The notes under the pieces were generated by a model. The model had not been told where the DNA came from. It saw only the letters and a program-made list of their open reading frames with translations, and did not search any database. 28,764 nt of DNA from a virus, in IMG/VR virus record IMGVR_UViG_3300028025_000773, positions 1-28,764 of that record; one strand, 5' to 3'. The first letter of the stretch is position 1. Each line of letters starts with the position of its first letter. The position numbers were made by a program, and so were the translations under genes. Shown here piece by piece: positions 2,661-26,304 of the stretch.

Positions 2661-3203
2661 ATGACAACAATTATAGGGCTTGAATATAAAGACAGCGCAG
2701 TAATTGTTGCTGATAGCCAGACCACCGATGATAGTGGTCGTATCTACAGCCATCCTGATGTTAAAAAGATTGCCGAACGTGGTTCGTTTCTAGTTGCTGG
2801 CTCAGGTGAGGTTCTACCTTGCGATATAGCCCAACACATATGGGAGCCACCAGCACCAACTAAGGCTGATTACAAAGACTTGTATCACTTTATGATTGCT
2901 AAGGCTATGCCATCTCTACGCAAATGCTTATCAGAGAATGGTTATAACTTTGATGAAGACAATAAAGAAATGCGTTTTCAGTTTATCATTGCAGTCGGTG
3001 GAGAAATATTTGATGTAGACCAAGAGTGCTCAGTATCTAAAACTGACACAGGAGTTTATGCCGCAGGTTCAGGTGCAGCATATGCACTTGGTGCACTACA
3101 CGCTGGAGCAGATGCTTACGAAGCAATGGAAATTGCAAGTAAACTTACAGCCTTTACATCAAAACCTTATTATTCAAAAACACAACCTAAACATATTAAG
3201 TAG
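2661..3203 (+). CDS. Proteasome/HslV-like Ntn-hydrolase (peptidase family T1), candidate prohead protease
   Basis: 180 aa with the layout of the bacterial HslV peptidase and proteasome beta subunits. After Met removal the N-terminus is Thr-Thr-Ile, the catalytic Thr position of the family. Asp18 (in VIVADSQTT) matches the conserved Asp17, and Lys36 (in DVKKIAE) matches the catalytic Lys33 with a two-residue insertion between them. The later AAGSGAAYALGAL (residues 134-146) matches the family's GSGG-YA motif, followed by the helix DAYEAMEIASKL. No propeptide is present, as in HslV. I do not see a clear equivalent of the proteasome Asp166. No unfoldase partner (HslU, Mpa) is present in the window. 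It has an AGGGGA ribosome site and lies 14 bases after the portal gene. Inference: in this position it may process head proteins during maturation, replacing the usual S78, S14 or S49 prohead proteases. It could instead act on host proteins. Confidence 0.8.
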   Translation: MTTIIGLEYKDSAVIVADSQTTDDSGRIYSHPDVKKIAERGSFLVAGSGEVLPCDIAQHIWEPPAPTKADYKDLYHFMIAKAMPSLRKCLSENGYNFDEDNKEMRFQFIIAVGGEIFDVDQECSVSKTDTGVYAAGSGAAYALGALHAGADAYEAMEIASKLTAFTSKPYYSKTQPKHIK

Positions 3204-3211
3204 GAGGAACA

Positions 3212-3691
3212 ATGGCGGGAAATGAGAACAGTGGCGGTTTTCGTCCAGGTGCTCCACAAAACAATCCAGCAAATGTTAACCCCCTTGGCGGTAACGGACA
3301 GTCAGGTCAGGCAAATCCAAATTACACAGGATTTGCTTATGGCGAAAACACAGCATTAGAAAATCAAGCAGGTTCAGCAACTATGGCTAAGGCTGCAACT
3401 CCAGCAGCAAGCCAACCTGCGCCAGCACAATCTATGAGTTCAGTAATGGGTGGATTAATGCCACTTGATGCAGAGTCACAAGATTCTCTTCCTATTTCAG
3501 ATGGTGTAGACATTGGGCGCGGACGCGGAAGCGAAGCACTTCCTCCTTCTGTAAATGCAGATACACGTATAACTGAAAACATTGATTTAATGAAACGATA
3601 CCTACCTGACCTTATTGATGCAGCCCGACTACCTGGAGCACCTGACTCATATAAGCGTCTTGTTAACTATGTCAAGTCAAGGCTTATTTAA
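3212..3691 (+). CDS. Hypothetical protein with disordered Gly/Asn/Pro/Ala-rich N-terminus
   Basis: 159 aa, not recognised. Roughly the first 80 residues are low in complexity, rich in Gly, Asn, Ala, Pro and Gln, and probably unfolded. The last 45 or so residues look folded and helical (ENIDLMKRYLPDLIDAARL and DSYKRLVNYVKSRL). A strong GGAGG precedes the ATG, eight bases after the protease gene. Because it sits next to the candidate maturation protease and portal, it could be a scaffold-like or processed head component, but nothing in its sequence proves that. It is translationally coupled to the next gene through a TAATG overlap. Confidence 0.7.
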   Translation: MAGNENSGGFRPGAPQNNPANVNPLGGNGQSGQANPNYTGFAYGENTALENQAGSATMAKAATPAASQPAPAQSMSSVMGGLMPLDAESQDSLPISDGVDIGRGRGSEALPPSVNADTRITENIDLMKRYLPDLIDAARLPGAPDSYKRLVNYVKSRLI

Positions 3692-3897
3692 TGAAATGGG
3701 TAGAAAATAACTTTTTTGACCATTTAGATAAGTTTGGCAACTCACTAGGTTATGAAAACTTTGGTGTTGCTGTATGCCTATCAATGGTTCCCTGGGAATC
3801 ACCACAAGACAGAGATGTATTTATTATGTCTTTAACTGGAGAGGATGTTAAAGGTGGAGAACCGTCAACATTTAATCCAGAAGGCGCGGTGATGTAG
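3691..3897 (+). CDS. Small hypothetical protein
   Basis: 68 aa, not recognised. The start ATG shares its A with the preceding TAA stop, and its own TAG shares its last base with the GTG start of the giant gene that follows. Translation of the three genes is therefore very likely coupled. The sequence has an aromatic/acidic N-terminal half (KWVENNFFDHLDKF) and a short hydrophobic stretch (FGVAVCLSMVPW) too short for a confident membrane segment. Being locked between virion genes it is probably expressed late, either as a minor virion protein or an assembly factor. Confidence 0.62.
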   Translation: MKWVENNFFDHLDKFGNSLGYENFGVAVCLSMVPWESPQDRDVFIMSLTGEDVKGGEPSTFNPEGAVM

Positions 3898-6800
3898 TGT
3901 CATTATGGAGCGATTTTCTTGATAATATTCAAGGTGCTGCAAAAACTGCAGGAAGCGCAGTAAGTGGCGTAGCAGGTGGAATTGCAAGTGGTGTTACAGG
4001 TACTGTAGGTGGACTCGTAGGTGGAGTCACAGGTACTGTAGCAAAATCTGGTGCATCTTTAGGTGCATCACAAATGTTTAAGGGACGACCTGACCTAGCC
4101 GCTGCTGCTGCTATTGGTGCAGAAGAGAGAACATCTCGTGCACTTGAAAAGGCTGGCATTACTCCTGTAGAAAAAACTGTGGCAAAGGTTGCAGACCCAG
4201 TTTTATATGTTGGTGAAAAAGCAGAAAAGTATGTTTTTAGCCCAGTAATTGCTCGTCCAATTTCTACTGCATTTTTATTAACTGACCCAAACAGTGTTCT
4301 ATACAATTCAGATAAACTTGGTCAAGGATTCCAGTTATCTGACGTAGTTGATGCATACAACAGAAGCGAAAAGGTTTCTCTTGGCGTATCAATGACTAAA
4401 TCAATGATAAATCCTCTTGCTGGAATTACTACACCAATTCTTGAGTCTGGTGGAATTGACCTATCTAATGTTGACCTATGGAATGACGAAGATGTAAAAA
4501 AGAATTTTCAAGACAACGTAGTTGGTAGATGGGTTACAGGAACATCTGACTTCATTATTAAGAATGTTGCTATTGCACGTGTTGGAACTACAGCATCTGC
4601 TTTAGCCAAAGCCGCTGCTACACGTTCTGGGTTAAACACATCACTTAAAGTTGGCGACATTAATGCTATGCCGCAGTGGGAAAAGTTAGCAACTGACCAT
4701 ATTGATTTTATTAAATCAAATGGTGCAACTGGTACTCGTTCTAATCTTGGAGAAGACATTCAGAGAATTGCTGAATCTGATGATTTAATCCTTATTAAAA
4801 ATACTATAGAGAAGTACAGTAATAATCCTAGACTTCTTCCATTGTTCAAAGAGACCAAAGACCCAGAGTTTGTAAGAGATGGATTTCTTGCTGATATTGG
4901 TTATGGTCCAGCAATAGAGCGTCTTGCATCAGCCCGACGTAGAGACGACTTGTGGTACTTGGCAGACGGAAACGCTGAGACACAAGGTGCATTCATAACC
5001 ACTGGTAAGGTCCCAGACTTTACTCCAGACCAGCGTGCTCGTTGGATGGGTGCATTTGATGATGCAATTGCTAAAGACCCTAAGAATCAAGAAATCTTTG
5101 ATGCATTCTTAAAGCAAGTTGAAAATCCAGAGACTGGCGTAATGTCTATTGAGCCAACATTCTTTGGCAAAGGATATAAGCCAGCAGAACCAATTATTGG
5201 TAAGGCTGCATTTACTGCAACACGTAACCGAGCAGCACAACTAAAGGCTGCAGCAATTCAAAGAGATTTCTCTAAGGTGGGTGGAGTTACACAGACAGTT
5301 CTAAGTTCTCGTGTTGGTGGACCTGTAACTGTTCTTATGCGTAATGTTGGAACCTATATGCCAAAGGGCATTGTTTCTTTTTCTGGTCTACGCCCATCTC
5401 AAGGCATAGATGAGTTAATATCAGTATTTGATGACGTTCCTTTGTTTACAAGGGGCGAAAAACTTATTACAATTTCAGAACGTACACCTCAGATTACTGT
5501 ATCTCAATACCGAACTCAAGTTATTGATAGATTTGTTTCTGCAGCAAACGATGGCGATAGAGCCAATGTAATTAAAGATTTAAACAAAGAACTTGCTAGA
5601 GTTGTTGCATACAACAGGGGCGTTTTTGACAACAATCTTATTGATGAATTTGTTGATGGACTAATGCAGAATGTTAACTCTGTTCACGGTCAATTACGCA
5701 GTACTGGTTTTGCATATGACCCATCTGGTGCTCGTATTGCAGTCAATGCAATTACTCAGCGCCAATTAGCCAACACTGAAGTAATGCTTCCATTTGGTCA
5801 ATTAGATAGAATGCTTCGTCGTGCTGAAAGACAAGAGCGTTCAAGGTTGACAAGTCTTCCAGCAGATACACTATCTATTACTTCTGCTGGAGCAAGACAA
5901 ATATTTGAGGCTGGTAACAAAGCCTTCTCTCTTGCTCAACTGTATCGTTTTGCATACATACCTAAGAACTCAATAATGGAACCAATTTTGTCTGCAACTA
6001 TGGCATCTGGTATGGATTTTGTCCGACCTTTGACAACACAGGCTAGCCGAGGCATACTTGATAGGTCAACTAATTTTATTATGCGTAATGTTGAGAAGAG
6101 CAAGACTGTTCTTCCTAGCCGTAAAAGAGAAATTCAACGAGAGATTAAAGCACTTCGTGACCAATATGATAGGGCTATTAATAATCGTGATGAAGCATTT
6201 CTTGAATACCAAGAGTTCTTCTCTGATACACCTACCGTATCTCCTTCTGCACGTCGTGATTGGTCTGATACCGTTAAGGCTGACCTTCGTGATGCAGAAC
6301 GCATTGTAGATGATATTGAGTCAAGACTGAATCAATATACTGTTGATTTTGGTAACAATAAAAAAATTGACGTACCAACTATATATGGACTACAACGCAG
6401 ACTTGAGGCACTAAAGAAAGCAAAAGACCCACGCTTTGGTGCAGACATTGCCAACGCACAAGCGGTTATTGCTAAGGCAACAGGTAACATAAATACTTTG
6501 ACACCTGAACTTAATGCTTTAAATAATGAAGTTGCTAGTGCATATACACGCTTGACCAGCATTATGGATGAGTTAGCACCTAAATTGCGTGAAGAAGCAG
6601 ACCTGCTTTCTATCGCAGAAAATCGTTATGCTAAAAAACCTATAATGCCACAGACCACAAAGGTAAGACTTAAGAATGGTCAGACATTTGATATGCCATC
6701 ATTTTCAAACCAACAATATCTTGGTGATGGCTATACAAGCGAAATTGCAAATATGTCAACTCGGACACTTGAGTTTCTTGGTAACAAGGCAATTGCTGGT

Positions 6801-9062
6801 AAGGTAAACAGAATTAGTCGCAAGACACCTGGAACACCTACAAAGCCAACTGATGTAGGTTATTTTGATGAACTTGCTTTTATTGTTAACAACCATATGC
6901 GTGGGGATATTCTTGTAGACCAAATCCTTTCAGGTTCTGGTCGTGAGTTACTTCTTAAGTGGGGTACTACAAAGCAGGGCGCCTCTTATGCTAAAAATAT
7001 GGGTCGTATGCCAGAGGATATTGTAGAGATTATTGACAACTCAATTTCATATGTTAATAGTTACCTACCAACAGCCCAGGCTCGCAGTATTGCTGCTGCT
7101 GGAAATGTTAAGGTTACAGACCTACAACGTGAACTTGCAGACAAACTAGATTCTATGGTTCCAATTCAACCATTAGATATTGAGTATGCAAACCCAACAA
7201 CTTTAGGTGGAACATTTAATCAAGCAATTGATTACTACTCATCAAAAGCGTGGCAACAACTGGCACGTCCAGAAAACATCTCTCGTGAAATATGGGGAAA
7301 TGTTGAGCACGTAAAGCGTACTACTCAGAAACTAGATTCTCTTGTAGCAAGTGGAGTAGAAGTAGACCTAGCAACTGCACTATCTGTGCGTCAGGCTGCT
7401 GCTGCTGAGGTTGTCAAGGAAGTCTCCAATGTCTTCTATACAATTCCACGTCAGCATCGTGCGTTGTATCTTGCTCGTACAGTATCTCAGTTCCCTAATG
7501 CTTCTGCTAGTGGAATTTACCGATATGGTCGCTTCGCAGCAAAACAACCTACACGTGTTGCAGGATTCTTAAATAGTTACTATGGTCTATACAATTCATT
7601 TGGTGTAGATAAGTACGGTAACCCAGTTGAAGACCCAATGAAGGCTGAGTATCTATTAGTTCCAGGTTCCAAAGAACTAGGATTTAATAAAGGCAAGGGT
7701 ATTATTCTAAGTGCCCGTGCAACAAACTTTATTGCCAACTTACCAGGTCCAGCCTGGATTGTTCCAATTGCAGTGGGCAAGTTATTAGATTCAAAACCTA
7801 ACTCTCGTGATGTCATTAAAGATATTATTGATAACTCTATAGGTAAAGTTCCTAATTACTCATATGATGAATTGTTCCCGTTTGGCGTAGAAACTAATAC
7901 TGCAAAGCAACTAAAGACAACATTTACACCTGCCTGGGCAAGAAATGTTCAAAGTGCATTCAGCAAAAAAGACACAGATTTAATGTGGATGCAGTCATAC
8001 CAGTCAGAGTCTAATCGTCAATGGATTCTTTATGATATGGAATTAGGTCCTAAGCCAACAGAAAAGTCAGTAATTGACGCAACTGAAAGTATATTCTTAC
8101 GCAAGGCTCGTACTCAATTCTTCTCACTATTTGGTAGCCCACAGTTTGTGGATACACTTCCAGATAGCATATACAAGGATTACTACTACACTCGTTTGAA
8201 TAAGTACAAGGCTCAGATTGACCCTGAGACCAACAAGCCATTTACTCAGAAAAAAGCCCTTGCTTTAGCAGAGGCTGATTTCCAAACTAATATGCGTCTT
8301 GCTGGTGGCAAAGACTTTCCAATGGACCGTCTATTTCTTTCCGTTAAGAGCAAGGTTGCAAACATACCTGCCAACGAAAAGGCTTACGATAGAATCTGGA
8401 ATGACTTCTCTGGTCTTGCAAAGCAACTAGAAAGTATAGACCCTTCAACGGTTGCATTACTGACGGCTGATATTCCTATTGAATACAACGGTCAGGTTAA
8501 GAAATTTCTTGAAGACCCTAACACAACATTGCCTGGTGGCACGACTCTTAATGAAAAGTTAAGAACACCAAAGCAAATTGAAGAGGAACTAGAAAGAACA
8601 CGTGTGTGGAGAGCATACTCTGACTACAAGGAAGAACTTAACGCTGCAGCAAAAAAGGCTAACTATGCTAGTTACCGAAGTGTTCCTGAATTAAAAGAAT
8701 TAATGCAGCAACACGTAAATAACCTATCTGAGTACAGCACTCTATGGCGTAACGAGTACAACAAGAATGTTACTAGCGGAGATTCTGCCTGGGTTCAATC
8801 ACAGGGTCTTTATGAGATTGTTAAAAACGATAAGTTTATGAAACAGTTTGGTGATACACAATTTTGGCGTCAAGCCAAGGGCTTTTTGTCCTATCGTGAT
8901 TCTGTTGCCAAGGCTTACAAAGATGCTCCTACTGGTTCAAAAGGCAAAGTCCAGGAACAATGGGCAGACTACCTTGAGGGAACACTTGATATGTGGGACC
9001 CAGTAATGCAGAAGTTAATCTCACGATACTTTATTAATGATAATCTGAAGGAGAATAAGTAA
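3897..9062 (+). CDS. Giant putative internal virion (ejection) protein, 1721 aa
   Basis: The largest gene in the window. It starts at GTG 3897 inside the previous stop codon. Residues about 12-55 are Gly/Ala/Ser/Val-rich with a glycine-zipper look, including GVTGTV twice (residues 32-37 and 43-48); such segments can insert in membranes. The rest is mostly helical, with a charged coiled-coil-like region at about residues 735-840 (SRKREIQREIKALRDQYD onward) and a Lys/Glu-rich helical C-terminus. I see no lytic transglycosylase, protease or polymerase motif. The length could suggest a tape measure, but there is no tail tube or chaperone gene nearby, no run of transmembrane helices, and it lies between portal and scaffold. 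An internal protein ejected with the DNA, like the T7 core proteins, is my preferred inference. It is coupled to the next gene by a TAATG overlap. Confidence 0.75.
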   Translation: MSLWSDFLDNIQGAAKTAGSAVSGVAGGIASGVTGTVGGLVGGVTGTVAKSGASLGASQMFKGRPDLAAAAAIGAEERTSRALEKAGITPVEKTVAKVADPVLYVGEKAEKYVFSPVIARPISTAFLLTDPNSVLYNSDKLGQGFQLSDVVDAYNRSEKVSLGVSMTKSMINPLAGITTPILESGGIDLSNVDLWNDEDVKKNFQDNVVGRWVTGTSDFIIKNVAIARVGTTASALAKAAATRSGLNTSLKVGDINAMPQWEKLATDHIDFIKSNGATGTRSNLGEDIQRIAESDDLILIKNTIEKYSNNPRLLPLFKETKDPEFVRDGFLADIGYGPAIERLASARRRDDLWYLADGNAETQGAFITTGKVPDFTPDQRARWMGAFDDAIAKDPKNQEIFDAFLKQVENPETGVMSIEPTFFGKGYKPAEPIIGKAAFTATRNRAAQLKAAAIQRDFSKVGGVTQTVLSSRVGGPVTVLMRNVGTYMPKGIVSFSGLRPSQGIDELISVFDDVPLFTRGEKLITISERTPQITVSQYRTQVIDRFVSAANDGDRANVIKDLNKELARVVAYNRGVFDNNLIDEFVDGLMQNVNSVHGQLRSTGFAYDPSGARIAVNAITQRQLANTEVMLPFGQLDRMLRRAERQERSRLTSLPADTLSITSAGARQIFEAGNKAFSLAQLYRFAYIPKNSIMEPILSATMASGMDFVRPLTTQASRGILDRSTNFIMRNVEKSKTVLPSRKREIQREIKALRDQYDRAINNRDEAFLEYQEFFSDTPTVSPSARRDWSDTVKADLRDAERIVDDIESRLNQYTVDFGNNKKIDVPTIYGLQRRLEALKKAKDPRFGADIANAQAVIAKATGNINTLTPELNALNNEVASAYTRLTSIMDELAPKLREEADLLSIAENRYAKKPIMPQTTKVRLKNGQTFDMPSFSNQQYLGDGYTSEIANMSTRTLEFLGNKAIAGKVNRISRKTPGTPTKPTDVGYFDELAFIVNNHMRGDILVDQILSGSGRELLLKWGTTKQGASYAKNMGRMPEDIVEIIDNSISYVNSYLPTAQARSIAAAGNVKVTDLQRELADKLDSMVPIQPLDIEYANPTTLGGTFNQAIDYYSSKAWQQLARPENISREIWGNVEHVKRTTQKLDSLVASGVEVDLATALSVRQAAAAEVVKEVSNVFYTIPRQHRALYLARTVSQFPNASASGIYRYGRFAAKQPTRVAGFLNSYYGLYNSFGVDKYGNPVEDPMKAEYLLVPGSKELGFNKGKGIILSARATNFIANLPGPAWIVPIAVGKLLDSKPNSRDVIKDIIDNSIGKVPNYSYDELFPFGVETNTAKQLKTTFTPAWARNVQSAFSKKDTDLMWMQSYQSESNRQWILYDMELGPKPTEKSVIDATESIFLRKARTQFFSLFGSPQFVDTLPDSIYKDYYYTRLNKYKAQIDPETNKPFTQKKALALAEADFQTNMRLAGGKDFPMDRLFLSVKSKVANIPANEKAYDRIWNDFSGLAKQLESIDPSTVALLTADIPIEYNGQVKKFLEDPNTTLPGGTTLNEKLRTPKQIEEELERTRVWRAYSDYKEELNAAAKKANYASYRSVPELKELMQQHVNNLSEYSTLWRNEYNKNVTSGDSAWVQSQGLYEIVKNDKFMKQFGDTQFWRQAKGFLSYRDSVAKAYKDAPTGSKGKVQEQWADYLEGTLDMWDPVMQKLISRYFINDNLKENK

Positions 9063-10180
9063 TGGCTGGCGGCAAAACCGACGAAAAGACAGATATACCA
9101 CAAGGACCAGTCATAACTGTTACTCCTAAAGATACTACTAAAAAGATTTCATACATCTGGATGCCAGATAAAAATGGTAATCTTGTAAAAGCAGATGCTT
9201 CTAAAGTAAAGAAGTCATTTGCTACATTACCTCAAGATGCAGTTCTTGCTCTTCAAGAGTTTTTGATTACAGTAGAAAACAAGACTAACCCAACCCGTGC
9301 CCAGCGCAATACCCTGTGGAACGATATTATTGATGGCGCTGCTGCGGCATTCAAGGATGGACAAAAAGTAAGTCCTTGGGAAGTTTTAGAGACTCTTACA
9401 CAGAATGCTCCAGATGTCAGTGGTATATCTGTTTCCTATACAGAGTACGACAAACTTACTGCAGATGCACTTCTTAATAAAGTATCTAAGAAAATAGGTT
9501 TTGATGTAAATAACCTAAGTGATGCTGATAAGGCTGAGTACTTTGCCAAGTTACAGCAAGAAGCCAAGGCTGGTGGTAAGACAGTAACTCGTAAGGCTGC
9601 TGCAGGTGGAATAGAGCAAGTAACAACTCCTTCAACCTTTGATGCTTTATCTTTTACTGAATCCTTTATTTGGGCTAAAGTAAACTTTGCTGATACAACT
9701 AAGTTGCCATCATCTGCAATCACGAGTATTTCTGGGGTAAAGTCACTACTTCGTCAATACAACATTACCAATCTTAGCCAGATGGAGATTGACCAACTTG
9801 GAATTGACTTAGCATCAGGTTCTAAATCACTAGATACTATTAAGTTAGACTTCCAACAGAAGGCTATTAAGGATTATCCTGCTTTGGCTTCACGCTTTGA
9901 ATCAAATCCTAACTTAACTGTACGTGCTGCGTTAGAGCCAATCCTAAATACTGTAGCAAAGTTATGGGAAGTTGACCCTGAGTCACTTGACCTTAATGAC
10001 CCAAACATTGAAAAGTTAGTACGTCCTGATGGAGTAGTTGGAAAACTGCCACCAGCATCAGTTGCTGAAGCATATAACTTTGCAATCAACCACCCAAATT
10101 TTGAGAAAACTTTAAAGGCTCAAGATATGGCACGTGATTCCGCTACTAGCGTCGCAAGAGCGATGGGATTTGGAATATAA
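9062..10180 (+). CDS. Putative internal virion protein (372 aa)
   Basis: 372 aa, no recognised family. The ATG overlaps the TAA of the giant gene (TAATG), and its own stop overlaps the next ATG in the same way. The first 40 residues are Lys/Thr/Asp-rich and polar; the remainder is predicted mostly helical, with several Asp/Leu-rich segments such as NNLSDADKAEYFAKLQQEA. There is no signal peptide or membrane segment. The C-terminus (SVARAMGFGI) ends in a short hydrophobic Gly-Ile tail, like the next gene product (RRAAGLI). Both share the start MAG and similar size and composition, so they may be distant paralogues. Coupling to the giant gene suggests that the three proteins are made in a fixed ratio and act in one complex. 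Confidence 0.7.
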   Translation: MAGGKTDEKTDIPQGPVITVTPKDTTKKISYIWMPDKNGNLVKADASKVKKSFATLPQDAVLALQEFLITVENKTNPTRAQRNTLWNDIIDGAAAAFKDGQKVSPWEVLETLTQNAPDVSGISVSYTEYDKLTADALLNKVSKKIGFDVNNLSDADKAEYFAKLQQEAKAGGKTVTRKAAAGGIEQVTTPSTFDALSFTESFIWAKVNFADTTKLPSSAITSISGVKSLLRQYNITNLSQMEIDQLGIDLASGSKSLDTIKLDFQQKAIKDYPALASRFESNPNLTVRAALEPILNTVAKLWEVDPESLDLNDPNIEKLVRPDGVVGKLPPASVAEAYNFAINHPNFEKTLKAQDMARDSATSVARAMGFGI

Positions 10181-11445
10181 TGGCTGGCAAAATAACTAAC
10201 CAGGCTGCTATTGACGCCGCCATAAGACAGAATGCTGTTAACGCTGCAAAAACAAAGGCAGCCGCTACTGTTGTCCAGCAACTACAACCACGTCAAGAAA
10301 CAGCCAAGCAAATCTCAGAGAGGGCTTCAAGTCTTCTTGATTTAGCAACTAAAATTGGTAAGAAAAAAGATGATGTTTCAAAGACGCAACCTATTGTAGA
10401 TAAAGCAAGCGGTATAATAAGCACTCAAAGAAGCACAGTTATTGACCCATACGAAAAAGCATTAAGAGATATAGAAACTTTTAGTAATCAGATAGCAGTG
10501 CCTAGTGCGATATTTGCTACAGAAGAAGAAGCCCCAGTTAGAACATTGGCTATTGATGTTTTTAAGCAAACTCTTGGTATGTTCTTTGGTCAAACAGAAA
10601 TGCAAAAGCCTTGGGTAAATGAACTATATTCATCTGTATCTAAGTTCTATAAATCAGGTTCTACCGCAGATGAGTCTTTCAACCTAGCGGTTCTAGATGT
10701 TCAAAAGAACCCTAATATGACTGAGTTCACAAAGCGTTTCAAGGGTATCTATGCCCTACAGGAAATGAAGCAAAAGGGTCAGGCTGTAACAGTGCCGACA
10801 GTTGCTGAATACTTTGCAACAGAGGCAAAGATGGGCGATATTCTTAAGCAATCATCTCTTGGAGAACTTGCTAACGAAGACTTCCTTGGAGATGTACTTG
10901 CTAAGGGTGTATCTGCAACAGAGTTTGCCAATAGAATTACAGCAATTTTTGATAGAATTGATAATGCTCCAAAAGAAACTAAAGACACAATTAGTAGATT
11001 CTTCCCATCTGTAGACAGAGTAAGTCTTGCTAAGGCTATTGCTCTAGGCGATAAGGGAGCAAAGGAATTGCAGAGTAAAGTAGCAGGGTATGAAGTTCTA
11101 TCTGCTGCAGAAAAGCAGGGACTTGGAGCATCAGCAACCAATCCATTTGGTGTCACGGAAGCAAGTGCTTATCAGTATGCCCTTAGCGGTGAAACGTTTG
11201 ATACAGCATTAACTAAATTTGGAACAATTGCTGCAGCATTGCCAACAGTTAATAAATTAACTCAGATTTATGGTCAAGAAACAATTGGACAGGCTGGTCT
11301 TGAATCAGCAATCTTTGGTAAGTCTGCTGCAGATATAAAGCGACTTGAAGATATAGCAAGAAAAGAAGAAGCATCATTCTCTGGAAGAAGCGGTGTTTCA
11401 CAAGTAAGTCTAGCCTCTCAACGTAGAGCCGCTGGCTTAATCTAA
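10180..11445 (+). CDS. Putative internal virion protein (421 aa)
   Basis: 421 aa, not recognised. It starts at an ATG overlapping the previous stop. The N-terminal 110 residues are strongly Ala/Gln/Lys-rich and helical (AAIRQNAVNAAKTKAAATVV), which is compatible with a coiled coil. The middle contains globular helical segments, and the C-terminal part is Ala/Gly/Ser-rich and ends in RRAAGLI. No enzyme motif is visible. It is the last gene of the portal-to-ejection block: the following 132 bases are non-coding and the scaffold gene then begins with its own ribosome site. Role inferred from position only; a tail or head completion protein is an alternative. Confidence 0.7.
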   Translation: MAGKITNQAAIDAAIRQNAVNAAKTKAAATVVQQLQPRQETAKQISERASSLLDLATKIGKKKDDVSKTQPIVDKASGIISTQRSTVIDPYEKALRDIETFSNQIAVPSAIFATEEEAPVRTLAIDVFKQTLGMFFGQTEMQKPWVNELYSSVSKFYKSGSTADESFNLAVLDVQKNPNMTEFTKRFKGIYALQEMKQKGQAVTVPTVAEYFATEAKMGDILKQSSLGELANEDFLGDVLAKGVSATEFANRITAIFDRIDNAPKETKDTISRFFPSVDRVSLAKAIALGDKGAKELQSKVAGYEVLSAAEKQGLGASATNPFGVTEASAYQYALSGETFDTALTKFGTIAAALPTVNKLTQIYGQETIGQAGLESAIFGKSAADIKRLEDIARKEEASFSGRSGVSQVSLASQRRAAGLI

Positions 11446-11577: not shown

Positions 11578-12054
11578 ATGAGCAACAACTACTGGGACGA
11601 CGAAGACGATGACCTAGATACCGACACAGAAACACAAATGGATGGTAGTGACTTACTTAAAAAGTTACGCAAAGCCAAGCGTGCAGACGAGAAGCGTATC
11701 AAGGAACTCACAGAGCAACTTGAGGGATTATCCAAGGCGCAGCGTGAACGTACAGTCAAAGAAGTCTTAGAAAAAAAGGGTGTAAATCCTAAAGCAGTTA
11801 GATTAATCCTCAAGGACATAGACGATGTATCTGAAGAATCAGTGAATAACTGGTTAGAAGATAACGGAGATTTGTTCGGGCTTACTCCAACTCAGGATGC
11901 ACCAGCAGTAAGTAACGTAGACCGTGCTGCATTACGTCAGCAGGATGCGATTACTCAAGGTGCAACAACACCTGACCGAGCAGAGAACTTAGAACAACGC
12001 CTCAATAGCGCCGAAAGCGCAGAGGAAATTCTATCAATTCTTCGCTCACAATAA
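11578..12054 (+). CDS. Scaffolding protein
   Basis: 158 aa, highly charged and mostly helical, directly before the capsid gene, the classical place for a scaffold. The N-terminus is very acidic (WDDEDDDLDTDTE), followed by a Lys/Arg/Glu-rich coiled-coil-like stretch (residues about 25-75), then an acidic and Gln/Ala-rich C-terminus ending in AEEILSILRS. This arrangement is typical of scaffolds that template prohead assembly and are then expelled or digested. If the T1-type protease at 2661 is a maturation protease, this protein would be a likely substrate. Recognition is by composition and position; scaffold sequences are poorly conserved. Confidence 0.77.
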   Translation: MSNNYWDDEDDDLDTDTETQMDGSDLLKKLRKAKRADEKRIKELTEQLEGLSKAQRERTVKEVLEKKGVNPKAVRLILKDIDDVSEESVNNWLEDNGDLFGLTPTQDAPAVSNVDRAALRQQDAITQGATTPDRAENLEQRLNSAESAEEILSILRSQ

Positions 12055-12086: not shown

Positions 12087-13043
12087 ATGGCAACAGCCAA
12101 TTACACATCAACCGATTCCGCTTCTCTAGGCGGTACCGCTGGTGGTGCTGGTCTTGTTCAGAAAGCATATGACCGTCTTCTTGAGTTCGCTCTTCGCAGT
12201 GAGCCTCTTATTCGTTCAGTAGCAGACAAGCGCCCAACCAACCAGTCAATTCCAGGCTCAACAGTCGTTCTACAACGCTATGTTGACCTTGCTGCTAAGA
12301 CATCAACTCTTACAGAAACAGATGATGTTGACTCATTAACAATGTCAACACCAACATCAGTTACAATTACTCTTGCAGAGTACGGTAACTCAGTGTTGGT
12401 AACACGTGCTCTTGAGTTATTCTCACTAGCAGATGTAGACCCAGCGATTGCAAACATCATTGCATTCAACCTTGCAGATTCAATTGACGCCGTAGCAATG
12501 ACAACATTGCGTGGCGGTTCAAACGTAATCTACTCAGGTTCAACAGCAACATCTACAGCAACAGTAACCGCAGCAGCAACAATCTCTTCAGCAAACATCC
12601 GTCGCGCAGTTGCGAAGTTGCGTGCTAACAAGGCAGTTGCTCGCAAGGGTTCACTATACTGGGCTGGAATCCACCCAGAAGTTTCACACGACCTCCGCGC
12701 TGAGACAGGTTCAGCAGGATGGTTGCTTCCAAACCAGTACGGTTCTGCACAGGACCGCATCTGGGCGGGAGAAATCGGACAGTACGAAGGTGCATACTTC
12801 GTAGAGTCTCCACGTCTACACGTGGGAACTGATGGTGCTAACTCTGCAAAGGTGTATCGCACAATCCTTGCAGGACAGCAAGCACTTGCCGAAGCAGTGG
12901 CAGAAGAGCCACACGTAGTTATCGGACCAGTCGTTGACCGCTTAATGCGTCACCGTCCAATGGGCTGGTACGGAGTTCTAGGTTTCGCACGTTACCGTGA
13001 AGAAGCACTATTCCGTATTGAGTCAGGTTCATCAATCGCTTAA
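12087..13043 (+). CDS. Major capsid protein (N4-gp56-like, HK97 fold)
   Basis: 318 aa, the shell-forming protein. The order of elements resembles the N4-gp56 family of HK97-fold capsid proteins. An N-terminal arm is followed by YDRLLEFALRSEPL and the segment PGSTVVLQRYVDLA, then LTLTE-type residues before the spine helix, LAEYGNSVLVTRALE, a long helix, and a C-terminal beta region with GPVVDRLMRHRPMGWYGVLGFARYREEALF. There is no large N-terminal delta domain, consistent with a separate scaffold gene. It has the best ribosome site of the window, GGAGGTGA at 12075-12082. Its codon choice is visibly biased to a few codons (GCA, GTT, TTC, AAC, CGT), as expected of the most abundant virion protein. 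A hairpin follows the stop. Confidence 0.9.
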   Translation: MATANYTSTDSASLGGTAGGAGLVQKAYDRLLEFALRSEPLIRSVADKRPTNQSIPGSTVVLQRYVDLAAKTSTLTETDDVDSLTMSTPTSVTITLAEYGNSVLVTRALELFSLADVDPAIANIIAFNLADSIDAVAMTTLRGGSNVIYSGSTATSTATVTAAATISSANIRRAVAKLRANKAVARKGSLYWAGIHPEVSHDLRAETGSAGWLLPNQYGSAQDRIWAGEIGQYEGAYFVESPRLHVGTDGANSAKVYRTILAGQQALAEAVAEEPHVVIGPVVDRLMRHRPMGWYGVLGFARYREEALFRIESGSSIA

Positions 13044-18858: not shown

Positions 18859-19161
18859 ATGCCAACAACAACTAAGGTGCTGTCTCGTACAGCAGCGTCA
18901 ACATCAACAACAACTCTATATACAACTCCGTCTGCAACAACAACTGTGATAACTAACATTGTTATCTGCAACCCAACAGGGTCTGCAACAACAGCATCAG
19001 TATTGCTTAATGATATTGACCTGCTTGGTGCAGTATCTATTGCAGCAAATACATCAGCATTCTTTGACCTTAAGCAAGTATTGCCTACAACACAGACAAT
19101 CAAAGCAAGTGCATCATCAACATCTGTTGACTTTCATATTTCTGGAGTGGAGATAGCGTAA
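18859..19161 (+). CDS. Small beta-sandwich tail protein, cassette copy A
   Basis: 100 aa, Thr/Ser-rich, beginning MPTTTKVLSRTA and ending FHISGVEIA. It is the first gene of cassette A and pairs with the 109-aa product at 20303: both begin MPTT-KVL, contain a central strand like VITNIVICN / VVSTIAVCN, and end with similar strands. The beta pattern and fibre neighbourhood suggest a head-fibre or tip-associated structural protein. GGGAG lies seven bases before the ATG, and the stop overlaps the next ATG. The function is inferred from context. Confidence 0.72.
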   Translation: MPTTTKVLSRTAASTSTTTLYTTPSATTTVITNIVICNPTGSATTASVLLNDIDLLGAVSIAANTSAFFDLKQVLPTTQTIKASASSTSVDFHISGVEIA

Positions 19162-19928
19162 TGGGTATATCAGTATTTCCAGCACCTAGTGCTGCAGGTT
19201 TAACACAAAAAACACAAACATTTACAAGTACTGGTACTTGGACTGCTCCTGCAAATGTAACAACCGTTGATGTATTTTTAGTTGCAGGTGGCGGTGGGGG
19301 ACAAGGTTCTTACGCACCTTCTACTAACGGTGGTGGTGGCGGGGGCGGTGGTGCAGTTTTAAATAGAAGTTTAACTGTTACTCCAAATACAACTTACACA
19401 ATAACCATTGGCGCTGGAGGCGCTGGTGGTAACAATGGTGGTCTTCTACCTCCTGGAAGTAGTGGAAGTAACTCTACCTTTGGCGCTCTATTAACAGCCG
19501 AAGGTGGCGGCGGTGGTAAAGGCGTAAACGGTGGCACTGGAGGTGGCGCAGGTGCCAGCAACGCAAATACTTCTGGTGGTGGCGGTGGCGGTGCTGGTGG
19601 CATTGGTGGTAGTGGTGCTCCTGGTAATAATATTGCTGGCAATACTGGTTCAGGAAGTCAAGGCGGTGGCGGTGGTACTGGAAGTAATGCTTCTGGTTGG
19701 AATGGCGGTGCTGGTGGTATAGGAATAGATGGTTTCGGCGGCGGCGGTGGAGGCGGCGGTGGTGGCGGAATTGGAGGCGCTTCAAGCGGTGGCGGTAGAG
19801 GTAAGACAAGCGGTACTGGATATGCAGGAACTGCAAACACTGGCGGTGGCGGTGGGGGCGTAGGTCCTAGCGGTGGCACTGGTGGTGCTGGCGGTTCTGG
19901 TTTCTGTCGTATTACTTACTGGTCATAA
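19161..19928 (+). CDS. Glycine-rich adhesin, cassette copy A
   Basis: 255 aa. An N-terminal beta unit of about 45 residues (TQTFTSTGTWTAPANVTTV and DVFLVAGGGG) is followed by roughly 200 residues of Gly-rich sequence broken by short loops. It ends in a conserved GGSGFCRITYWS. This is the layout of glycine-rich phage adhesins such as T-even gp38 of phage S16, where Gly runs form a bundle of polyglycine-II helices and exposed loops bind the receptor. The loops between Gly runs (for example YAPSTNG, ATGSGSQ-like segments) are where specificity would lie. It overlaps the preceding gene by one base (TAATG). Likely mounted at the fibre tip; the receptor is unknown. Confidence 0.8.
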   Translation: MGISVFPAPSAAGLTQKTQTFTSTGTWTAPANVTTVDVFLVAGGGGGQGSYAPSTNGGGGGGGGAVLNRSLTVTPNTTYTITIGAGGAGGNNGGLLPPGSSGSNSTFGALLTAEGGGGGKGVNGGTGGGAGASNANTSGGGGGGAGGIGGSGAPGNNIAGNTGSGSQGGGGGTGSNASGWNGGAGGIGIDGFGGGGGGGGGGGIGGASSGGGRGKTSGTGYAGTANTGGGGGGVGPSGGTGGAGGSGFCRITYWS

Positions 19929-19939
19929 GGAGATAAACT

Positions 19940-20179
19940 ATGGAACAACATTACGCATTTATTAAAGATAATCGTTTACAAAACATTTGTGTTTTTGCTA
20001 CCCAAGATGAAGAACTTGCTGACCGCATTGCACAAGAACAAGGCTATGACGATGCAGTATGGGTAGGCGAAGATAGACCAGTAAAGTATTCATTATATGA
20101 CGGTACAACATTTACCGACCCGACAGAAGAATATTTAATTTCTATTGGAGTTATGAAACCAGAGGCAACTAATGAGTAA
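19940..20179 (+). CDS. Small acidic protein after the adhesin, cassette copy A
   Basis: 79 aa starting MEQHYAFIKDNRLQNICVFA, then DEELADRIAQEQGYDDAVWV and a C-terminal SLYDGTTFTDPTEEYL. It is a clear paralogue of the 77-aa product at 21427; well over half of the residues agree by eye. The YDG-x-F-x-P ending resembles small tail-fibre-associated and fibre-assembly proteins. A chaperone or a small tip protein for the adjacent glycine-rich adhesin is my inference. GGAG lies upstream of the ATG. Confidence 0.72.
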   Translation: MEQHYAFIKDNRLQNICVFATQDEELADRIAQEQGYDDAVWVGEDRPVKYSLYDGTTFTDPTEEYLISIGVMKPEATNE

Positions 20180-20302: not shown

Positions 20303-20632
20303 ATGCCAACAACATATAAAGTACTGGGGCAGGTAGCCCCTTCAGCAACAACAAACACAACATTAGAAACAGTACCTAGTGCTACTCAAGCAGTAGTATC
20401 TACTATTGCTGTATGCAACCGTGCTGCTACAGCAGCGACCTATCGTATTGCTGTGCGCCCTGCGGGTGCAACATTGGCTAATGAGCATTACATTGCTTAT
20501 GACTCTACAGTAGGTGCTAATGATTCAACAATGTTAACCATTGGTATTACCCTTGCAGCCACAGATGTTATTACTGTGTATGCATCAACTGCTAATCTTT
20601 CATTCTCAGCATTCGGAAGCGAGATTTCATAA
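20303..20632 (+). CDS. Small beta-sandwich tail protein, cassette copy B
   Basis: 109 aa, paralogue of the 100-aa protein at 18859. It starts MPTTYKVLGQVAP and contains SATQAVVSTIAVCNRAATAA, HYIAYDSTV and ASTANLSFSAFGSEIS. This version matches a phrase I recall from many phage and prophage tail regions (VVSTIAVCNR, LAATDVITVYAS), so copy B may be nearer the ancestral form. GGGAG at 20291-20295 precedes the ATG. The stop overlaps the following ATG. It is probably a structural component near the fibre tip. Confidence 0.75.
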   Translation: MPTTYKVLGQVAPSATTNTTLETVPSATQAVVSTIAVCNRAATAATYRIAVRPAGATLANEHYIAYDSTVGANDSTMLTIGITLAATDVITVYASTANLSFSAFGSEIS

Positions 20633-21414
20633 TGGCTGTATCTAAACTTAATCCTGTATCAGGCGGCGTAACTCAAAAAACACAAAACTTTACATCCACT
20701 GGAACATTTACTGTCCCATCTAACTGCACTAGCATTGAAGTTTTATTAGTTGGTGGTGGTGGTAGTGGTGGCTCTAGCAACGGTAGCAATGGCGGAGGCG
20801 GCGGCGGTGGTGGTGGTGAAGTTTTACTAAGAAATCTTACAGTAACTGCTGGAAGTTCGCATACCGTAACTATTGGCGCTGGTGGTGGTGCCGTAAGCAG
20901 TGGTGGTAGTTATGGATACATTGGCAATAATGGTGCTGATAGTTCTTTTGGTTCTTTATTAACCGCAATTGGCGGAGGTGGTGGGGGTAACCGTGCTTTT
21001 GCTGGTTTAAATGGTGGAAATGGTGGCGGTGCTGGCGGTGGAGTTAATAGCACTGGCTACGGTGGTGGCTCTGGTGGTGGTGCAGGTTCTTCGCCAAAAA
21101 TAAATACTAATACTGCTCCTACAGGTGCGCAAGGCGGAAGAGGAACTAGAGGATTTGATGGTTCTAGAGGGTCCACAGTTACTGGTGCGTGCGCTACTGG
21201 TGGAACAGGATTCTTAGGCTTTGGCGGCGGCGGTGGTGGTGGAAATGGAAATACCAATAATCTTGGAAAAGGCTGTACGGGTGGCGGCGATGGAAGCCAT
21301 AATACTACTGCTGGAAGTGGAACTGCAAACTCTGGCGGCGGTGGTGGAGGTACTGTAGTTGGTACATCTGGTGCTGGCGGTTCTGGTTTCTGTAGCGTTA
21401 CTTATTGGTCTTAA
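20632..21414 (+). CDS. Glycine-rich adhesin, cassette copy B
   Basis: 260 aa with the same plan as the adhesin at 19161: a short beta N-terminus (TQNFTSTGTFTVPSNCTSI and EVLLVGGGGS), a long Gly-rich body with variable loops, and the end GGSGFCSVTYWS. N-terminus and C-terminus are conserved between the two copies (about 25 bases before the Cys codon are identical in DNA), while the loops differ almost completely. This is what divergent receptor specificity would look like. Two Cys pairs not present in copy A occur in the loops (ACAT and KGCTGG). One-base overlap with the preceding gene. Confidence 0.8.
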   Translation: MAVSKLNPVSGGVTQKTQNFTSTGTFTVPSNCTSIEVLLVGGGGSGGSSNGSNGGGGGGGGGEVLLRNLTVTAGSSHTVTIGAGGGAVSSGGSYGYIGNNGADSSFGSLLTAIGGGGGGNRAFAGLNGGNGGGAGGGVNSTGYGGGSGGGAGSSPKINTNTAPTGAQGGRGTRGFDGSRGSTVTGACATGGTGFLGFGGGGGGGNGNTNNLGKGCTGGGDGSHNTTAGSGTANSGGGGGGTVVGTSGAGGSGFCSVTYWS

Positions 21415-21426
21415 GGAGAAATTATA

Positions 21427-21660
21427 ATGGAACAACACTATGTGTTTATTAAAAACAATCGTGTAGAAAATATTGCAGTATTTGCTTCACAAGATGAAGA
21501 ACTTGCTGACCGTGTAGCACGGGAGCAAGGTTTTGATGATGCTGTGTGGGTAGGTGAAAATGCTCCCGCTAAATGGTCAACTTATGATGGCGCTACCTTT
21601 ACTAAGCCAACAGATGAGTATTTAATATCTATTGGAATTTTAGAACAACCAACAGAGTAG
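21427..21660 (+). CDS. Small acidic protein after the adhesin, cassette copy B
   Basis: 77 aa, MEQHYVFIKNNRVENIAVFA and then DEELADRVAREQGFDDAVWV and STYDGATFTKPTDEYLISIG. Paralogue of the protein at 19940. GGAGAAATTATA precedes the ATG. It is the last gene of the duplicated cassette; a promoter and the sulfotransferase moron follow after 45 bases. A fibre or adhesin assembly role is inferred from conserved linkage to the glycine-rich gene in both copies. Confidence 0.72.
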   Translation: MEQHYVFIKNNRVENIAVFASQDEELADRVAREQGFDDAVWVGENAPAKWSTYDGATFTKPTDEYLISIGILEQPTE

Positions 21661-21705: not shown

Positions 21706-22542
21706 ATGGATAAAACATATCATTTTCTAGCAGGACTACCACGAAGTGGTAACACACTTCTGTCTTCAATACTCAATCAGAACCCAAATATCTATAGTAG
21801 TCCATTAAGCCCAATTGCTGGAATGATGTGGGACTATAGAGGTTTATATAACACAGAAACAATGAACCGTAATAAAGAAAACAAACTTAGGGCTGATATA
21901 TTTTTATCTTCTTTTATAAATAACTTTTATAAAGATGTTGAAAAACCTATAGTAATTGATAGAGAAAAAACTTGGGGTACTCCTGCTAACTTGGCTTTAA
22001 TAAAAGAATACATAACACCAACTCCTAAAATCATATTTACGGTACGTGATGTGTTAGACATTATTGCTTCTTTTGTCAAGATGGATGCTGATTATTTAAA
22101 AACAAATACAACAAACAGCGCAAGTTTTTACCTTAACTATCGGTCACAAAAAGATTCTATAGTGGAATTTCTAATGACTCCTAATGGTGAGTTAGATAGA
22201 GCATTACTTTCTTTAGCAACTGCTTTCTTTCCAGAAAACAAAGGTATGTTTCACATTGTGGAGTATAACGATTTAGTTCTTAAGCCAGAAGAAACAATGT
22301 CTAGTATTTATAAGTTCTTAGAGTTGCCTGAGTACAAACATAACTTTAAGAAGATTGAAAAGGTAGAAGTAGATGATGATGAGTCATCAGGACTACCTAA
22401 AAATCTACACGAGATAAGAAAAAGTATATCTAAATCTACAACAAATACCGACATATTGTCAGATTACATAAAGCACAAGTATTCCAATATGGAGTTCTGG
22501 CGTGATAATTCCTTAATGAAAATTAAAGGAAGAGATTTTTAA
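21706..22542 (+). CDS. Sulfotransferase (PAPS-dependent), moron gene
   Basis: 278 aa. The 5'-phosphosulfate-binding loop AGLPRSGNTLLSS (residues 9-21) and the 3'-phosphate-binding motif FTVRDVLDIIASF (Arg114, Ser122) are both present in the order and spacing of cytosolic-type sulfotransferases. The enzyme would move a sulfate from PAPS to a hydroxyl, such as on a glycan, lipid or protein. No signal peptide or membrane anchor is seen. Base composition is more AT-rich than in the neighbouring structural genes (runs of AAA, ATA, TTT codons), which suggests separate origin. The gene has its own promoter and terminator and interrupts the tail operon, the definition of a moron. Host glycan alteration (receptor masking) or sulfation of the virion's own glycans are both possible. 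The stop is followed by 22 bases and then the terminator. Confidence 0.88.
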   Translation: MDKTYHFLAGLPRSGNTLLSSILNQNPNIYSSPLSPIAGMMWDYRGLYNTETMNRNKENKLRADIFLSSFINNFYKDVEKPIVIDREKTWGTPANLALIKEYITPTPKIIFTVRDVLDIIASFVKMDADYLKTNTTNSASFYLNYRSQKDSIVEFLMTPNGELDRALLSLATAFFPENKGMFHIVEYNDLVLKPEETMSSIYKFLELPEYKHNFKKIEKVEVDDDESSGLPKNLHEIRKSISKSTTNTDILSDYIKHKYSNMEFWRDNSLMKIKGRDF

Positions 22543-24828: not shown

Positions 24829-25049
24829 TGACAGCAGCAGAATGGGCTGGACTCATTGTCTCAGTCGTAACGATAATAATTAGTTTCGGTGCAGCAACAC
24901 GTTGGTTAGTTAAACACTATCTTGATGAGTTGAAGCCGAATGGGGGCAACAGTTTGAGGGACTCCGTGAACATTAACACCGAGAGGCTTAACCGAGTTGA
25001 ACAAAGAGTTGACCAAATCTACGTCCTATTATGCGAGAGTAAGAAATAG
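24828..25049 (+). CDS. Small membrane protein, holin-like (73 aa)
   Basis: 73 aa with one strongly hydrophobic N-terminal segment ([17 protein letters not shown], residues about 7-27), a short basic/aromatic turn (TRWLVKHYL), then a hydrophilic tail with heptad-like spacing of Val/Leu ([20 protein letters not shown]) that could form a coiled coil. The layout recalls the single-span membrane proteins encoded between tail and lysis genes in actinobacterial phages. The start ATG overlaps the preceding stop. It could be a holin, an antiholin or a lysis regulator. Its last 53 bases overlap the next gene in another frame. Confidence 0.65.
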
Positions 25050-26304
25050 TTTAGCAGTTTGTTTTATAGCATTTAATTTTTTATTCCTAGTTCCACCAGC
25101 ATATGGTGAGGAATCACTACCAGAAGTAACAACAATAGTTACCAATGGTGGAGATGATGTCTCTTATAGAATCCCTCTGACAGTATCAATCGTCTATGAC
25201 GGTGTTACTTATGAAAATGTTTATGCAACAACCAACTCAGTTATAACCTTTGGTAGAGCAGATGGAACTTATTGGGATTACCCAAGAACTCCATCTATTT
25301 CTATTGAGTCTAAAGACTGGTGGGTATTGCCACAGCAAATGCCAGATACTCACTTTATTCTTAATGTAAGTGAAGGTGGATTCCAAGTAGATGGTTCATA
25401 CCGTCCATACGGTACATTTACTGGAGATACTACACAGATTGTTATTACTGCACAGATTCAAACAGATGGCACAGTTGCTTACACATACAATGTAACTGGA
25501 CCATTAACTGGTAATGAGCGTACAGGTGCAAGACTTACAGATGGAACTGTTGTTCCTTTGGAAGAAGCAAATATTATTGAGGTAGAAGAAGTTCCTGTAT
25601 TGGAACCAGAACCCGTAGAACCTACTCCTGAACCTGTTCCTGTTGAACCAGAACCTGAACCTGTTGTTCCTGAACCTGTGGAACCTGAGCCTGTTGTGCC
25701 AGAGCCAACTCCTGTTGAGCCTGAACCAACTCCTGTTCCTGTTGAGCCAACTCCAGTTGTAGTGCCACAACCATCTCCTGAGCCTGTGACACCCCCAGTG
25801 TATATCCCAGAACCAGAGATAGTAGAGACACCGATAGAAGAACCAGAAACTCAACCATTACCTACTCCAGAACCTGAGCCAGAGCCAGAACTTGAGCCTG
25901 TCCCAGTTGAGCCTGAGCCTACGCCAGAACCTATTGAACCAGAACCTATCCAACCTGAACCTCCTGTAGAAGAAACCGAAGAACCAATAGTACAGGCAGA
26001 TGAGATTGATTTGGAAACATTAGAACCAGACACGCCAGTTGAATTATCTAATGGTGTAGTAGTTACTGCAGAAGTAGCAATAGCAATTCAATTATTAGAA
26101 GACCCAGCAGCGTTGCTTCAAGAATTATTCACAGACCCAGCAGCAGCCTTTGCTGCACTTGGTTCAGTAGGGGCAGATATGACTGAAGAAGAGCGAGAAG
26201 AATCTGAGAAGGTAATTATCGCAGCAGTCATTGCAGGAAACATAGCCACAACCGCATCTATCTCAGCAGCATCAGCAGGTGCTGTAACCAGGAGGAAACC
26301 ATAA
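24997..26304 (+). CDS. Secreted, cell-wall-spanning Pro/Glu-rich protein (435 aa)
   Basis: The frame opens with TTG 24997; GAGAGG at 24981-24986 is the likely ribosome site. A signal peptide is visible: basic region then [17 protein letters not shown] with a cleavage-like AYG at residues 35-37. Residues about 40-190 form a folded, beta-rich domain ([20 protein letters not shown]). About residues 200-330 are a Pro-Glu-Val/Thr stalk (PEP, VEP, PTP repeats), extended and rigid. The C-terminus has acidic helices, [20 protein letters not shown], a hydrophobic Ala/Ile/Ser-rich stretch and a final TRRKP, like a membrane anchor with positive tail but without LPxTG. Similar C-termini are known to me from other actinophage lysis regions. 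Likely exported and membrane-tethered; a role in lysis or envelope disruption (spanin-like) or superinfection exclusion is inferred. Confidence 0.72.

Follow-up and report, generated by a model that had tools for sequence, protein, structure and literature searches.

The gene at 2661-3203 and its surroundings

The window, i.e. the whole stretch of DNA analysed, is a 28.8-kb virus record from a phage of about 40 kb; the terminase gene is truncated at its left edge. Its genes run in the order TerL (5' end cut), portal, T1, g4, further genes, scaffold and capsid protein, T1 being a peptidase gene that occupies a slot between portal and g4. This order agrees with the initial annotation, which had placed a protease in the portal-proximal slot of the head module with a separate scaffold gene downstream. 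The features are:

3-857, + strand: large terminase subunit, C-terminal part with the 5' end cut (PHROG 38, 1e-17; PF17289 over cut-off)
817-2646, + strand: portal protein, upstream border of the slot (PHROG 104, 1.1e-32; 43-44% identical to Beephvirinae portals)
2661-3203, + strand: T1 peptidase (proteasome/HslV-like, group I), 180 aa; catalytic Thr2/Asp18/Lys36, oxyanion Gly49, GSG motif at 136-138
3212-3691, + strand: g4 (PHROG 8200), downstream border of the slot; found in phages with and without T1
3897-11445, + strand: variable block of g6 (1721 aa), g7 and g8, probable internal or ejection proteins; the counterpart region of Beephvirinae encodes NlpC/P60 and SLT domain proteins
11578-12054, + strand: probable scaffolding protein (PHROG 7813, 2.7e-34; PHROG 648 head scaffolding, 3.9e-5), alike in phages with and without T1
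12087-13043, + strand: major capsid protein, N-terminal pro-domain not visible (PHROG 1357, 6.5e-79; PF13252, 9.8e-13)

The gene at the position of the scaffold in Streptomyces phage Dennebes is annotated as a scaffolding protein. The variable block is extremely divergent: the median pairwise distance is 0.7-0.83 for g7 and g8 versus 0.08 for the capsid protein, and identity in the g6-g8 block often falls below 35% even in pairs of phages with capsid proteins of about 90% identity. The capsid protein varies in length; it has 318 aa in the window and 399 aa in Planktophila phages E7 and F5 (L089:17567-18766), with 79% identity and an insertion of about 80 aa, and the capsid ORFs are longer in several further relatives too.

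Several other genes of the window can be described. A phage-encoded sulfotransferase domain protein (21706-22542; PF13469, 1e-16) adjoins the tail genes. In the tail-fibre region, two similar glycine-rich proteins (19161-19928 and 20632-21414) are each followed by a small ORF related to the other (19940-20179 and 21427-21660), which looks like a duplicated module. A predicted 435-aa protein with a TTG start (24997-26304) contains a long Pro-Glu-Pro-Val repeat tract.

Among named phages, those nearest to the window are E7 and F5 (OX376640 and OX376641), isolates on a 'Ca. Nanopelagicales' strain that infect 'Ca. Planktophila' LanE-43 (PMC10202952). Streptomyces podoviruses (Beephvirinae) have the same gene order and encode homologues of the window's portal and capsid protein. 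Kinship with E7 and F5 together with this homology makes an actinobacterium the likely host of the window phage; the hosts of the other virus records are likewise presumed ones.

A propeptide-less peptidase of family T1

The product of the gene had been assigned to peptidase family T1 on the basis of Thr2, Asp18, Lys36 and a GSGAAYALGAL motif, and both the residues and the assignment are correct. The ORF has an ATG start directly before Thr-Thr. PF00227 matches it with E = 1.5e-5 and 25.2 bits (cut-off 22.4 bits) in an alignment limited to residues 2-39; PHROG 1040, 'peptidase HslV family', matches residues 1-170 with E = 1.4e-29. PF00227 is also matched by 25 of 30 aligned relatives, and a profile built on 30 diverse relatives retrieves the betaproteobacterial BPH (5ovu, 1.3e-8), HslV and proteasome beta chains from the PDB. 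The AlphaFold (AF2) model (pLDDT 91.7, pTM 0.88) has an Ntn-hydrolase beta-sandwich fold with helices H1-H4, H2 lying at residues 74-92. Its best Foldseek match in the PDB is again BPH (5ovs, 3.7e-11), followed by HslV and proteasome chains; phage proteins annotated as HslV are matched as well. Profile search and structure prediction, which had been proposed as checks of family membership, both support it.

Thr2, Asp18 and Lys36 are the equivalents of the N-terminal Thr, Asp17 and Lys33 of family T1, and the oxyanion Gly is also kept. Among 131 distinct sequences, Asp18 and Lys36 are present in all, and Thr2 and Gly49 in 130 each. The GSGAAYALGAL motif spans residues 136-146, with G136, G138 and G144 invariant in the aligned relatives. 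Aligned members start with Met-Thr and have no propeptide. The intact catalytic set suggests that the protein is proteolytically active. The gene is under strong purifying selection (dN/dS = 0.04-0.2); conservation, fold and selection together rule out a chance ORF. At least 506 relatives are found in IMG/VR. Bacterial homologues number just 10; these are distant (25-35% identity) and come for the most part from proteobacteria.

The initial annotation had pictured an enzyme working without an unfoldase, and the gene content bears this out as far as the phage itself is concerned: AAA_2 (HslU/ClpX-type) has no match in the 18 records of T1-carrying phages of the clade. The PF00004 AAA matches in E7 and F5 were considered as an unfoldase and rejected, as they correspond to a DnaB-like helicase.

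Exchange at the slot and the role of T1

Among 318 loci in which portal and g4 are both visible, the slot holds T1 in 251, a small protein designated s129 in 58, neither in nine and both in none; whichever of the two is present, it occupies the same position. Since the set was seeded with searches for T1, portal, capsid protein, s129 and s178, these proportions are not natural frequencies, while the lack of double carriers is independent of seeding. Loci without T1 in the freshwater clade were also recovered via portal or capsid protein, i.e. independently of T1. PHROG 1040 has no match in T1-lacking records of 28.9-41.0 kb, although IMG/VR records classed as linear are fragments, and absence from any single one is not proof.

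The s129 family consists of uncharacterised proteins of 75-78 aa with the core YAIELHEFYKSLRKAGFTVDNALW and an acidic tail (L129:615-848, L169:995-1219 and 56 more loci); PHROG and Pfam searches with slot proteins of this type give nothing above chance. In part of the clade, T1 and g4 are separated by a further uncharacterised acidic protein of about 86 aa, s178 (WxLIxEWADYxGxRxL...TPWNA; L178:4886-5143, L089:8033-8287), which persists in a few phages without T1.

The portal tree implies at least five switches between presence and absence of T1, and its deepest branches among the freshwater phages are s129 lineages. Divergent T1 lineages, 30-60% identical, occupy the same slot. Phages with and without T1 can be paired on nearly identical head genes: L028 and L397 (portal 88%, scaffold 84%, capsid protein 97% identical), L152 and L388 (scaffold 90%, capsid protein 96%) and L063 and L169 (scaffold 91%, capsid protein 89%). 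Close relatives that lack T1 have almost the same heads, which makes an exchangeable accessory role the most likely one for this enzyme. The reading that we hold to be reasonably probable is that of an intact, propeptide-less group I peptidase encoded in an exchangeable slot, which is not an obligatory head-maturation protease. In most clade members, T1 keeps its place next to the portal gene, and its conservation equals that of the head genes; this steady place and high conservation are unusual for a dispensable accessory gene, and count against the accessory reading.

The initial annotation had proposed that T1 is a self-contained head-maturation protease, which would act within the prohead, with no unfoldase, to digest scaffold and/or trim capsid protein. 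The slot near the portal, the separate scaffold gene and the correlation of T1 distances with scaffold distances are compatible with this, as is the gene content of the clade: S78, S14 and S49 proteases are found in none of the tested members, with or without T1, in searches that do recover the S78 enzyme of AAS21 and the S49 enzyme of D'Alembert. As the window represents 28.8 kb of the roughly 40 kb of the phage, the claim that no other protease is present can be tested on relatives only. The expected lack of other prohead proteases in T1 phages stands for the tested clade members as regards S78, S14 and S49 but fails in AAS21 and D'Alembert, which carry T1 as well. PF03420 (S77/U9) has no match in the clade, but none in its controls either, and is thus uninformative. 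A maturation protease would be expected to accompany its capsid system throughout, or else to give way to a different protease. Neither is the case here: the T1-lacking relatives retain the portal, the scaffold and the capsid protein, and none of those tested shows an S78, S14 or S49 protease instead. These natural 'knock-outs' already argue against the proposal. Capsid-protein N-termini are alike in phages with and without T1, with no visible pro-domain, and Beephvirinae have homologous portal and capsid proteins but no T1. Their 'peptidase' gp11, considered as an alternative maturation protease, is an NlpC/P60 protein.

Co-evolution of T1 with the scaffold was also considered as a sign that the scaffold is its substrate, and rejected. 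The initial rho of 0.51 came from unequal samples; on a common non-redundant set, T1 distances correlate with those of scaffold (0.60), portal (0.54), capsid protein (0.47) and g8 (0.16), and the T1-scaffold value does not exceed that between portal and scaffold (0.63). These correlations single out no special partner for T1. Scaffolded podovirus heads such as those of P22, T7 and phi29 are not known to need a protease. The simplest reading is that the head of the freshwater actinophage clade likewise assembles without one; processing of head proteins by T1 is unlikely, and a role as head-maturation protease in particular is very improbable.

Alternatively, T1 could trim the internal or ejection proteins g6-g8, or enter the virion and later the host cell together with them. 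The slot lies directly upstream of this block in one late gene cluster, but the block is still present in phages without T1 and the divergence of T1 and g8 is only weakly linked (partial rho 0.12); we regard this as rather unlikely. T1 might instead target or mimic host proteolysis or defence, e.g. by capturing a proteasome-type ATPase of the host or by breaking down an antitoxin or a defence protein, and the small alternative slot proteins would then represent different responses to that pressure from the host. The exchange of slot content against nearly constant head genes and the sharing of one slot by such divergent T1 lineages favour this. Moreover, the hosts are actinobacterial, and Actinobacteria are a phylum known for proteasomes; a literature search for a proteasome in these particular hosts returned no relevant paper. 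We consider this explanation unlikely too.

A less probable proposal again is that T1 and s129 are mutually exclusive alternatives for the same late task near portal or internal-protein assembly, one proteolytic and the other not; if true, a proteasome-like enzyme would be a replaceable part of the machinery for virion assembly or ejection. Finally, T1 could be a transpeptidase or ligase rather than a protease. Connectase shows that the same fold can ligate (PMC8665760), but the T1 model, whose nearest fold is the protease-like BPH, has no visible counterpart of the two helices that connectase has inserted between strands 3 and 4, and a ligase is highly improbable.

For T1 as an accessory peptidase, the following course may be proposed. 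Removal of Met would expose the catalytic Thr. By analogy with BPH (PMC5777263), the protein most likely forms a small ring or double ring, which could then act on short or unfolded polypeptides with no need for an unfoldase. As part of the late gene cluster, it is probably made late in infection. The best guess at its substrates at that stage would be host proteins or peptides, or phage proteins other than the capsid protein.

Relation to known proteasome homologues and phages

Homologues of T1 in other phages occupy accessory regions. In the T5-like phage AAS21, the gene lies between those for thymidylate synthase and RNase H, far from the head module, and an S78 prohead protease is present; in D'Alembert it lies in a small-gene region, also far from the head module, and an S49 prohead protease is present. 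It is found beside ThyX in Pumpernickel, at the right end in Hum25 and in a small-gene region in DSL-LC01. Such phage genes have been annotated under protein metabolism (PMC8953757), and HslV without HslU has been remarked on in phage annotation (PMC7823757). A literature search found no phage-encoded proteasome homologue with an assigned function.

The phage proteins of PHROG 1040 match T1 over its full length and show no essential difference from it. Among characterised proteins, BPH (5ovs, 5ovt, 5ovu; PMC5777263) is the best PDB match by both profile and fold. Like T1, it has a Thr1/Asp17/Lys triad and no known partner unfoldase; identity is only about 22%, and BPH is a bacterial protein that forms 14-mers with an acidic cavity, whereas the viral T1 is known from sequence and model. 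HslV works with an AAA+ partner, HslU, for which AAA_2 gives no match in the 18 T1-carrying phage records of the clade.

Phage proteasome homologues were described in 2021 as PPH and AAH (Fuchs et al. 2021; PMC8665760). PPH, found in phages and hosts, resembles T1 in being phage-encoded and propeptide-less. However, it has about 140 aa and no helix H2, while T1 of the window has 180 aa and contains H2; assignment to PPH is ruled out by this length and helix. AAH is a group I homologue with a compact subunit, found in phages and abundant in Actinobacteria (PMC8665760). Its helix set and lack of a propeptide are compatible with T1, a likeness drawn from the published description rather than from sequence. 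As of 2021, AAH had not been found in any phage specific to actinobacteria (PMC8665760); the present clade adds an actinophage group with a group I proteasome homologue.

The Beephvirinae Immanuel3, Manuel, FlowerPower and Dennebes share portal, capsid protein and gene order with the window; unlike the window, their four complete genomes contain T1 nowhere, and PHROG 1040 gives no match. E7 and F5 (PMC10202952) have the same gene order including T1, and their host is known. Their T1 is 37-39% identical to that of the window despite identities of about 85% for the portal and about 79% for the capsid protein. Together with the pairs that differ in T1 on nearly identical head genes, these isolates make the role of T1 testable. 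While proteasome homologues in phages were already known, their occurrence in this host clade and the exchange at the slot are new: in an abundant clade of freshwater actinophages with two isolated relatives, T1 stands at a fixed slot beside the portal, where it is swapped against an unrelated small protein.
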